A stretch of 64,000 nucleotides of DNA. Source: Natrarchaeobius oligotrophus. Its GTDB lineage: Archaea > Halobacteriota > Halobacteria > Halobacteriales > Natrialbaceae. Positions 58,891 through 62,214 of the stretch are shown here, in pieces. The stretch spans positions 372,001 through 436,000 of the forward strand of contig NZ_REFZ01000001.1 in NCBI RefSeq assembly GCF_003841465.1. Reading direction: 5' to 3'. The notes under the pieces were generated by a model. It worked only from the letters and a program-made list of their open reading frames with translations, made no database searches and was not told the DNA's origin. Position 1 is the stretch's first letter. Each line of letters starts with the position of its first letter. Made by a program: the position numbers and the translations under genes.

Positions 58891-59178
58891 TCAGATCTCG
58901 TCGACCAGTTGCGCGAAGTCGTCGGTGTCGACCACCGACATCGTCTGGGCGTCGAGCCCGTGGCGGTGCAGCGTCAGCGCCGACTTGAACGCTCCGTCCC
59001 GGTCTCCCGCCTCGAAGATGATGAGAAAGTCGTGGTGGCCGAGGACGGCGTAGGAGTCGATCAGTTCGGCGTCGTGGTCCTCGAATTCGGTTCTGATCTC
59101 ACCCCAGATCGACGCCAGCTCCTGGGTGTTCTGGACGTCTCGTCCCTCGAGTTCGACGAGCGACGCGTACGTGGGCAT
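58891..59178 (-). CDS. GYD-domain protein
   Basis: A 95-residue protein of the GYD family (ferredoxin-like dimeric alpha/beta barrel group). It includes [20 protein letters not shown], an alpha helix, then [20 protein letters not shown], the usual GxxD/YDxxxI-type strand. The role is unknown; some family members bind small ligands or act as stress proteins. The ATG at 59178 is divergent from the truncated pyk copy at 59345. A fragment of a second GYD gene lies at 59457-59555. Confidence 0.85.
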
Positions 59179-59184
59179 GGGCTC

Positions 59185-59465
59185 GCTACGACGGGCCGAC
59201 GGAAAACGATTGACGTGGCAACGGACGGGTCCCGGCGCTCGCGGTTGGCCGACGCCTCGGACGCGCTCGACCACCGGTAAAAATTCGTACTCGATTTCGA
59301 GTAAGTCCTGTACCTTTTTGCCCGTGCTCGCGCTACCCCGAGCCATGAGAAAGGCGAAAATCGTCTGTACCCTCGGGCCGGCCTCGAGCGATCGGGACGC
59401 GATCCGGGAGCTGGCCGAGGCCGGGATGTCCGTCGCTCGGTTGAACGCGAGCCATGGAAGTCGTG
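59185..59465 (+). repeat. direct repeat A: duplicated pyk promoter and 5' end
   Basis: These 281 bases match 61933-62214 with roughly ten differences and one single-base indel. They include the pyk upstream region and its first 40 codons. The two copies are in the same orientation, 2.75 kb apart. Confidence 0.95.
59345..59465 (+). pseudogene. pyk: truncated pyruvate kinase 5' copy
   Basis: The first 40 codons of pyruvate kinase ([20 protein letters not shown] through NASHGSR) are intact and preceded by the same promoter-like sequence as the complete gene at 62094. After GTCGTG at 59465 the sequence switches to an unrelated GYD-gene fragment and the frame only continues for about 38 more non-homologous codons. 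It cannot be functional but could still be transcribed. Confidence 0.9.
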
Positions 59466-59555
59466 TTCGCCGAGAAGCGCGTACGAATCCACGAGTTCGG
59501 CCTCGTGTTCCTCGAACTCCGTCTGTATCTCGCCCCAGATCGAGACAAGTTCCTG
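59457..59555 (-). pseudogene. fragment of a second GYD-domain gene
   Basis: Read on the minus strand, 33 codons encode [20 protein letters not shown] then [13 protein letters not shown]. This corresponds to residues 19-51 of the intact GYD protein at 58891-59178, with about seven substitutions. The 5' part is cut 6 bases from the IS end and the 3' part is replaced by the pyk copy. The joint to pyk lies in GAAGTCGTG (59457-59465), present in pyk and nearly so in GYD genes. Confidence 0.85.
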
Positions 59556-59561
59556 CTACTT

Positions 59562-59580
59562 TGTTGAATAGCAGCTGAAT
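59562..59580 (+). repeat. left terminal inverted repeat of the IS
   Basis: TGTTGAATAGCAGCTGAAT; it pairs with 60462-60480 at 16 of 19 positions. Confidence 0.8.
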
Positions 59581-59585
59581 GGTAG

Positions 59586-60410
59586 TTAGAGTGGCTCACA
59601 GAGCGTTTCGATGTTGATGATGGCGAACATAAGGACGATCTCAGGGAACTGTCGATACCAGCCCAGCGCTCGCACGGCGTCGCCGAGCGAGCGCTTCGTA
59701 GTCGAGTAGGAAGTTTCGGCCATCCAGCGCTGAGAGTAGTCTTTTCCCCGAATAAGCGCGTTATGACCTACCGTAAGCGGTCTCGATCCGCGTTGTAAGA
59801 TGAGCGGATCGACACCGAGGGCGTAGAACTCGTATTTCGTGATCCAGTTGTGGAAGGCTTTGTCCGCCGCTACAGACAGCAGGTCGTCCGCGTTTCGGCG
59901 GACGACCTGCGGCCCGGTCTTGGTATCGTGTTTCCACCGGGCTGAGATATGGACGTCAAGAACAGCGAGCGACTCTCTATCGGTTAATGTCGTCACTTTC
60001 AGTGTCTGTACGTTACTTCCAGACCGTTGGCGATAGTACGACGAAGCGGCGCGTCGGTCGAAGAACGTACTGTCAAGCGTTACATGGCCAGACTGCGAGT
60101 GTTGCTACGCTGAAACGCGCAGCAACGCCCGCCACACTCACATTTTCAGCCGATCAAACGACTTGTAGATCGTGTTGTAGTCCGGCAACTCGTCCCGTTC
60201 AAGGCCAAGTACGTCACGAATCTCAGCCATATACTTCAGCCGGTTCGGCGTTTCACGGTAGCTGTGACTCTCTTCGAGCCGAAAACAGTGCAGAACGACG
60301 TGCACCCAGCGGGCGAACCCGCCGCTGGCGGGCTCGCCCGCGTGCTTCCTCAACGCTTGTTTGACTAGGTCCCGACACTGCTCAACGAAGTCGAGGAGAT
60401 CGATTTCCAT
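59586..60410 (-). pseudogene. IS5-family transposase with two nonsense mutations
   Basis: One continuous frame of 274 codons from the ATG at 60410 (MEIDLLDFVEQCRDLVKQAL) to the stop at 59586. It is broken only by TGA at 60138-60140 (after FDRLKM, before VWRALLRVSA) and TAG at 60105-60107 (before QHSQSGHVTLDSTFFD). Both are one base from sense codons (TGG and CAG). Catalytic parts are otherwise recognisable: DSTFFD for the first Asp, LSVAADKAFHNW for the second, and MAETSYSTTKRSLGDAVRA for the Glu. The frame is preserved, so inactivation appears fairly recent. Confidence 0.88.
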
Positions 60411-60461
60411 GGACAGAGTCGAATTCCTCGACTTCACCCTTCTAACCCGCGATATCGGCTG

Positions 60462-60480
60462 ATTCAATCGCTATTCAACA
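60462..60480 (-). repeat. right terminal inverted repeat of the IS
   Basis: The complement reads TGTTGAATAGCGATTGAAT and matches the left end except for three bases. Confidence 0.8.
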
Positions 60481-60517
60481 GAGCACTTGAACAGGTACCG
60501 TGTCAAGTAGTACCGGT

Positions 60518-60874
60518 TCACGGGCTACCGTCCGATCGAAGCGCGGCGATCCGTTTGCCGGTGGGCGTCGGTCCACCGTCTCCATATTTTTTGAACAGGA
60601 TCGTCTCCACGCAGATCCACATCAGAGTGCCGATGATGCCCACAAACGCGAACGATGGTGCGATATCGGTCCCGGTCACCAATAGGGCAAGCATCACGGT
60701 CCCAACGCCGACGGTTACGATCCACCCCGCCATGACGACCATCCCTAAAGCCGTCCTCGAGACCGCAGCCGGAGCTTTACTGACATCGAAGAGTCCGATG
60801 GTGCCCACGATCACCATCGCGACAGCGAACGGTAACGTGACGGCGAACCCAGAACTGATGGCATTCCAAACCAT
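60518..60874 (-). CDS. small three-helix membrane protein in the insert (candidate immunity protein)
   Basis: A 118-residue protein with three hydrophobic segments (about residues 8-28, 41-67 and 72-94) and a polar basic tail ending GKRIAALRSDGSP. No family is recognised. A TATA-like ATAAATAT at about 60921-60930 on this strand predicts transcription from about 60900, which favours the ATG at 60874 (MVWNAISSGF) over the GTG at 60913. It is divergent from the exported protein gene at 61117 and shares its A+T-rich intergenic region. Size, membrane topology and position suit an immunity or transport partner of that protein, which is inference only. Confidence 0.65.
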   Translation of the reverse strand: MVWNAISSGFAVTLPFAVAMVIVGTIGLFDVSKAPAAVSRTALGMVVMAGWIVTVGVGTVMLALLVTGTDIAPSFAFVGIIGTLMWICVETILFKKYGDGGPTPTGKRIAALRSDGSP

Positions 60875-61116
60875 GTAGTTGGGTTTGTCAATGGGAAAAA
60901 TAAGCGTTTGCACCGTCCGATATTTATGAAGATGGTGCTATTGGTGTTAAATAATTGATATAGAGATCGTAGTTTCGGCCGTATCGTTTCGTTAGCCATA
61001 GTATATTGACATGGAACACAAGTATACACGATATAATGTAATTTGTCCACGATAACATTGACATAATTGGACTAAACGAAAAGGTTATATTTATGCTTAT
61101 AAATGTATGATTTGCA
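60875..61116. other. A+T-rich divergent intergenic region of the insert
   Basis: These 242 bases are the most A+T-rich stretch of the window and contrast sharply with the flanks. They contain candidate TATA boxes for both directions (about 60921-60930 and 61085-61104) and several short inverted motifs. No open frame in it looks like a gene. Confidence 0.6.
61085..61104 (+). promoter_or_regulatory. TATA-like boxes before the exported protein gene
   Basis: TTATATTTA (61085-61093) is centred 28 bases before the ATG at 61117, fitting a leaderless mRNA. A second box CTTATAAAT (61096-61104) is too close to the start to serve the same codon. Confidence 0.6.
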
Positions 61117-61794
61117 ATGGTTCAAGATAGATATGAACTCGTCAGCCGTCGAAGCGTATTTAAGACCGCAACACAGGCGCTCGTCGCCACCTCGATTTTC
61201 GCCACGGGTGCGAAGGCCACCGATTCAGAAACCGACGACGAGGTCTACGACGAATCGGTCGGGATTAGTTTGGATGAGGACAAGCTAGTCTACGACGAAT
61301 CGAATGACCTCAGCCTAGAAACGCACGAGGAAACGGAGTCCGTCGATCTCGACGAAAGCGTCCGCTCAACCGTCGATGCACTGAACGAAGCACGCGAAGA
61401 CGGAGAGGTCACCTTTGAGGAGCGCGATGGCGAAGTGTGGGTCGTCTCGGACGGCATGGAATCCGACGAGGCTAGTGTGTTGTGTGGGACGAACGACTAC
61501 ACAAGCGGTTCGACCTCGCGGGGCCCCTACCACGTGCTGAAGCTTGACGATGGGCTTTCACGGGACGTGGCCGCACTGATGGCCGCAGGTGCCGCAGCGG
61601 GGGTGATCGCGACGAAGATCTCCGCATCGATTGGAGCCGTCCCGGTAGCAGTCGTCTCCATGATCGCCGGTATCCTCTCCGGCCTCGGCGCACTGCTGAT
61701 CCATGAGAATAACGATGGCTGTGGAGTCAAGATTCGCCACTACCCACACCTTCCAGAGGTACCTGGTGTCGGGATTACGTTCCGCCCACAGTAA
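61117..61794 (+). CDS. Tat-exported precursor with Cys-bracketed hydrophobic hairpin (halocin-like candidate)
   Basis: A 225-residue protein of unknown family. Residues 9-33 are a Tat signal (SRRSVFKTATQALVATSIFA). A very acidic region with a short internal repeat (VYDES...SL at 43-52 and 58-67) runs to about 118. The only two cysteines, Cys123 (VLCGTNDY) and Cys202 (DGCGVKIRH), bracket two Gly/Ala-rich hydrophobic helices (about 151-170 and 172-195). A short Pro-rich tail follows. The plan of export signal, acidic pro-region and disulfide-closed membrane-active hairpin resembles bacteriocin or halocin precursors, but I see no sequence match to halocin C8. Codon choice (TTG, ATT, CTA, AGT) and lower G+C than the neighbours suggest transfer. 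A divergent small membrane protein is adjacent. Confidence 0.75.
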   Translation: MVQDRYELVSRRSVFKTATQALVATSIFATGAKATDSETDDEVYDESVGISLDEDKLVYDESNDLSLETHEETESVDLDESVRSTVDALNEAREDGEVTFEERDGEVWVVSDGMESDEASVLCGTNDYTSGSTSRGPYHVLKLDDGLSRDVAALMAAGAAAGVIATKISASIGAVPVAVVSMIAGILSGLGALLIHENNDGCGVKIRHYPHLPEVPGVGITFRPQ

Positions 61795-61932
61795 TCCGGG
61801 CGACGCCCCTCAGTTCGTTCCACCAGCTTGGTTCGGCCAGGATTTTCCACGTGTTCGTGATGGTGACGATTACTCAGAGACACAGTCCGAGGGACGTGTA
61901 AGACGGTGTTGACAGACAAGAGGGTGTGAGAA

Positions 61933-62214
61933 GCTACGACGGACCAACGGAAAACGATTGACGTGGCAACGGACGGGTCCCGGCGCTCGCGGTTGGCCGA
62001 CGCCTCGGACGCGCTCGAGCGCCAGTAAAAAATTCGTACTCGATTTCGAGTAAGTCCTGTACCTTTTTGCCCGTGCTCGCGCTACCCCGAGCCATGAGAA
62101 AGGCGAAAATCGTCTGTACCCTCGGGCCGGCCTCGAGCGATCGGGACGCGATTCGGGAGCTGGCCGAGGCCGGGATGTCCGTCGCTCGGTTGAACGCGAG
62201 CCACGGAAGTCGTG
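61933..62214 (+). repeat. direct repeat B: pyk promoter and 5' end
   Basis: The 282-base partner of 59185-59465, containing the promoter and first 40 codons of the complete pyruvate kinase gene. Confidence 0.95.

Follow-up and report, generated by a model that had tools for sequence, protein, structure and literature searches.

A family of putatively Tat-exported haloarchaeal proteins with exchangeable membrane partners: candidate halocin-like toxin-immunity pairs

The window analysed here, 64,000 nucleotides of Natrarchaeobius oligotrophus (contig NZ_REFZ01000001.1, positions 372,001 to 436,000), contains between 59185 and 62214 an island that consists of an IS5-type element and two divergent genes, one for a putatively exported protein of 225 aa and the other for a membrane protein of 118 aa. 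The features of this region are given below in window coordinates, with residue numbers referring to the 225-aa protein.

59185..59465, + strand: upstream region and 5' end of pyk, first copy (sequence comparison within the window)
59559..60483, - strand: IS5-type element, inactivated, with inverted ends and two in-frame stops in its transposase
60518..60874, - strand: membrane protein of 118 aa with three helices, candidate for immunity (ORF; homologues beside toxin homologues in two genomes)
60875..61116, no strand: A+T-rich promoter region shared by the two divergent genes (33.9% GC)
61117..61794, + strand: exported proprotein of 225 aa, candidate halocin-like toxin precursor (ORF; homologue family; no database family)
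61117..61221, + strand: Tat signal region, residues 1-35 (SRRSVFKTA ... AKA), from sequence; RR kept in nearly all full-length members
61264..61449, + strand: folded acidic pro-domain, residues 50-111, beta-beta-helix-beta-beta (AlphaFold2 and conservation)
61456..61476, + strand: disordered linker, residues 114-120, presumed processing site (pLDDT below 50 and indels)
61477..61791, + strand: candidate C-terminal effector domain, residues 121-225, with C123, C202 and terminal Gln (AlphaFold2 pLDDT 83-95; cysteine co-variation)
61933..62214, + strand: pyk upstream region and 5' end, second copy, leading into the intact pyk (sequence comparison within the window)

The first-pass annotation, made from the letters alone, described an A+T-rich insert that differs from the chromosome in composition, lies between duplicated pyk ends next to a dead IS and carries an A+T-rich promoter region common to both genes, and each of these observations holds. 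The insert (60483-61932) has a GC content of 53.9%, compared to 66.3% for the whole window, and is contained in the most A+T-rich stretch of the latter. Two copies of the pyk segment flank the island on both sides, with 99% identity over 187 nt (59279-59465 and 62028-62214) and 95% identity over 99 nt (59185-59283 and 61933-62031). The transposase ORF of the IS5-type element occupies 59586-60467, and the inverted ends are located at 59559-59580 and 60462-60483. In two congeners, the pyk region is present as a single copy with no interruption, and a profile search detected the gene of the exported protein in none of three congeners. The 98 nt at 59458-59555 repeat, at 77% identity, a piece (59027-59124) of the gene that precedes pyk, so that the island may have arrived with DNA of a related species.

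The 225-aa protein starts, as initially proposed, with a Tat signal recognizable by the motif SRRSVFKTA, followed by an acidic pro-region with 32 D/E against 4 K/R between residues 36 and 117. This acidity alone was given no weight because haloarchaeal proteins are acidic anyway; the C-terminal 108 residues, with 8 D/E against 7 K/R, are unusually non-acidic for a haloarchaeon. In the AlphaFold2 model, which was built from an alignment of 28 sequences, the pro-domain reaches a pLDDT of about 90 in the helix and the second strand pair, and two of its residues, N90 and G96, are nearly invariant across the family alignment. The linker differs in length among the homologues, with indels in A1 and A5, and its variability and predicted disorder are consistent with processing that would release the C-terminal domain. 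The first-pass description of the C-terminal half as two Gly/Ala-rich helices bracketed by the only two cysteines stands in part. C123 and C202 are indeed the sole cysteines and are placed one at each end of the helical part; the bare hairpin is replaced in the model by three helices (145-156, 161-172 and 177-198) that pack with beta strands in one compact beta-beta-helix-helix-helix-beta-beta domain. The region 150-198 is hydrophobic and rich in Gly and Ala in this protein, and rich in Ala, Gly and Val across the alignment, with a moderate helix hydrophobicity in the 225-aa protein (mean 1.5). An ordinary anchor hairpin, an alternative raised at the outset, is not what is predicted: the hydrophobic part is internal rather than a terminal anchor, with conserved strands and a terminal Gln after it.

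Of the 28 aligned members, 18 have both motif cysteines and four have neither; five lack the second one but contain another Cys in the domain, and the only member with the opposite loss is a broken gene. This largely joint gain and loss of the motif cysteines supports a C123-C202 disulfide, although the association is modest given the relatedness of the sequences (Fisher p = 0.026). Gln (window 61789-61791) is the exact C-terminus of 22 of 37 family members, compared to 7.6% of control genes, and most of the members that do not end in Gln carry one just ahead of a short extension.

The initial proposal had left room for the exported protein to belong to a structural or enzymatic family, and none emerged: there was no significant match in Pfam, NCBIfam or PADLOC, no PDB chain was matched significantly by sequence, a fold search of the model against the PDB and viral models returned nothing, and PHROGs gave only weak matches, of unknown function. 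Searched with the single sequence, 20 of 391 haloarchaeal genomes gave matches, the weakest of them spurious; a profile search raised the tally to about 30 genomes and at least 37 loci, once matches confined to the beginning of the profile had been set aside as Tat signals. Both profile counts are lower bounds, as a limited number of candidates was scored in each genome. No match was detected outside the haloarchaeal order in a phylum-wide sample, and a scan of genome contigs with the single protein found nothing. Phage and plasmid collections yielded no phage match and one plasmid match, from Natrinema, annotated as 'hypothetical protein' in the public record. With members in a minority of the genomes and in none of the three congeners, and one of them on a plasmid, the distribution of the family is patchy and mobile. 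The dN/dS values of about 0.25-0.48 between close relatives (three pairs) indicate purifying selection, and at four loci (L038, L044, L049 and L051) the toxin homologue carries stops, frameshifts or a truncation beside an intact partner. The host genome encodes a second, distant member (about 20% identity; L042:9732-10391, G000:C5, about 41.1-41.8 kb), and the partner of that one is a 311-aa membrane protein of a different family.

The divergent ORF encodes a 118-residue membrane protein with hydrophobic segments at 10-28, 46-64 and 75-93, in line with the three helices assigned to it initially. Homologues of this protein adjoin a toxin homologue in Natronorubrum halalkaliphilum (G166) and Natronobiforma cellulositropha (G104), the genomes that contain the two closest relatives of the exported protein; the two genes point the same way in one of these genomes and opposite ways in the other, and the distance between them also differs. 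Because both the 225-aa and the 118-aa ORFs have homologues elsewhere, we consider them real genes. Four genomes of a single genus carry a solitary homologue of the 118-aa protein next to gatA, with no toxin (L053, L054, L055 and L056, near 9.7-10.2 kb). These may be orphan immunity genes or members of an older family that has supplied immunity proteins, and the 118-aa family may have another function.

Whether the neighbour is conserved across genomes had been named as a decisive question, and it is conserved, both as 118-aa homologues in two other genera and, more generally, as a multi-helix membrane neighbour within 700 bp at 30 of 34 mapped loci. Small membrane neighbours, defined as proteins of 170 aa or less with two or more helices, are found at 23 of the 34 loci but next to only 19 of 149 background genes (68% vs 13%, Fisher p = 3e-10), with the reservation that some loci are not independent of each other and that genes in the related loci were called heuristically. 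Four loci had no membrane partner within these limits, and three of the four have a candidate nearby, close by at L046 and about 1 kb away at L095 and L097. The partners sort into at least 14 groups among which no similarity could be detected, in a clustering that is necessarily rough for short hydrophobic sequences. The groups compared are proteins of about 300 aa (six loci), about 130 aa (four loci) and 118 aa (three loci) and two further groups; in addition, there are at least 10 singletons with no detectable similarity, and the partner types include 60-70 aa two-helix proteins and proteins of about 125 aa. A PH domain suspected by eye in the 300-aa partners was dropped when a Pfam scan gave no match. 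Many partners are tiny ORFs of the kind that annotation may omit. By analogy, a secreted part that is conserved while its membrane partner switches family is the pattern of bacterial bacteriocin-immunity pairs. This pairing of one exported protein with many unrelated small membrane proteins, which the letters alone could not reveal, is the strongest evidence for the proposed role.

We therefore regard a halocin-like, bacteriocin-type toxin-immunity module, in which a proprotein is cleaved and inserts into membranes against which a membrane protein confers immunity, as the probable identity of the pair, with the toxin belonging to a family absent from the searched libraries. The 225-aa protein would be exported via the Tat pathway, with the acidic pro-domain (50-111) keeping the precursor soluble and harmless. 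An extracellular protease would then cut the disordered linker and free a C-terminal domain of about 105 residues (roughly 11 kDa), closed by the putative C123-C202 disulfide, whose Gly/Ala-rich helices would enter the membranes of related haloarchaea and damage them; the 118-aa protein in the producer's membrane would block that insertion. No protease gene is linked. Halolysin-type extracellular activation is plausible by analogy with HmHapP (HFX_0892), a secreted haloarchaeal precursor activated by an extracellular serine protease (PMC12893001). The likeness to HmHapP is one of description, and that protein differs in that its active part is N-terminal and comprises two alpha-helical motifs (PMC12893001). 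Extending the proposal to the whole family, we lean slightly towards a large polymorphic toxin-immunity system, that is, a haloarchaea-specific antimicrobial family with a fold unseen in the PDB, whose single toxin scaffold pairs with at least 14 mutually unrelated groups of membrane immunity proteins.

The conserved linkage alone would also fit a ligand-receptor or a substrate-chaperone pair, in which the 225-aa protein is a Tat-exported surface or signalling protein and the partner its membrane receptor or assembly factor. This explanation appears improbable, given that a receptor or assembly factor should be conserved along with its ligand, yet the partners are unrelated between loci, and that the patchy distribution and the broken toxins beside intact partners are a better fit for conflict genes. 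The hydrophobic C-terminal half and the position of the island beside an IS could also suggest that an ordinary membrane-anchored surface protein and an unrelated membrane gene were joined by chance; the recurrence of the linkage in other genera, with membrane neighbours far above the background, and the internal position of the hydrophobic part, ahead of conserved strands and the terminal Gln, make such a coincidence very hard to credit. A bacteriocin-immunity module is thus favoured over a surface protein, a receptor pair or an enzyme by the combination of a conserved exported protein, a membrane neighbour that is not constant, patchy spread and toxin decay.

Within the toxin-immunity interpretation, the C-terminal domain might bind a specific target membrane protein that the partner shields, much as halocins H6/H7 are reported to act on the Na+/H+ antiporter. 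Protection of varying targets would account for the great diversity of the partner families, and the domain is predicted to fold as a beta/alpha unit, not as a simple hairpin; nevertheless, the hydrophobic, Gly/Ala-rich character of the 150-198 region in this protein and its Ala/Gly/Val-rich composition across the alignment favour membrane insertion, and we consider target binding rather unlikely. The membrane-inserting toxin with a dedicated membrane immunity protein remains our preferred reading. To our knowledge, very few halocin genes have been identified, and how cells withstand halocins is poorly understood; the family described here supplies candidate toxin-immunity pairs from at least 37 loci ready for testing in haloarchaea, a C-terminal domain that possibly represents a new fold, and a route to understanding how archaea compete.

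Neither the sequence searches nor the fold searches returned a proven antimicrobial protein; the resemblances to known systems are those of architecture. The best PDB sequence match, Plantacyclin B21AG (E = 0.046), is probably compositional. Pore-forming colicins and SdpC/SdpI also combine a secreted protein containing hydrophobic helices with an adjacent small multi-helix membrane immunity protein, but these systems are bacterial and family searches gave no homology, so that the relationship is one of analogy only. Halocin H4 likewise comes from haloarchaea, is exported by Tat and contains an internal hydrophobic segment, but is about 350 aa long and has a different domain; homology was rejected, with a probability of 0.3% in hhalign of the family against HalH4 homologues that had been recovered at 58% identity.

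The geobacillin 26 family (NF035925; geobacillin 26 and alicyclobacillin 24) shares export, a length of about 240 aa and a C-terminal Ala/Gly-rich hydrophobic segment with the 225-aa family, but is bacterial and uses Sec instead of Tat. For alicyclobacillin 24 (Ali24), narrow-spectrum, membrane-linked killing has been proven (PMC13176240). Homology was rejected here as well: hhalign gave a probability of about 2.1%, and all scores were below the curated cut-off of 40 bits, with 13.3 bits for the best family member. Weak NCBIfam geobacillin-26 matches (E = 0.055 and 0.3) resemble background, with the model equally matching unrelated hydrophobic stretches in the same genomes. At the bacterial loci, the neighbouring gene in Clostridioides encodes a membrane protein whose C-terminal part is soluble, and in Alicyclobacillus a small two-helix ORF of 54-62 aa lies directly downstream, both for alicyclobacillin 24 and for its A. 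fastidiosus relative (L110:19951-20139 and L131:3272-3436). This ORF is a possible immunity gene, with no CDS listed for it in the incomplete table of the A. acidoterrestris plasmid.

The parallel that the first-pass annotation drew, that of halocin precursors combining Tat export, a pro-region and a compact C-terminal peptide, is also seen at halocin C8-like loci (TIGR04449), which share with the present pair a Tat signal, a long pro-region, a hydrophobic Gly-rich C-terminal peptide and an adjacent small two-helix membrane protein. Halocin C8 differs, however, in having about ten cysteines rather than two and a 76-residue Cys-rich peptide rather than a beta/alpha domain of about 105 residues, whereas the 225-aa family has a separate pro-domain fold. 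The absence of homology to halocin C8 that had been noted by eye was confirmed by profile comparison: hhalign aligned the Tat signal alone, and TIGR04449 matched true halocin C8-like proteins but no member of this family. On Halobacterium and Haloferax plasmids, halocin C8-like genes are followed by a conserved 68-aa two-helix 'hypothetical' protein (L106:3304-3510 and L107:3299-3505).
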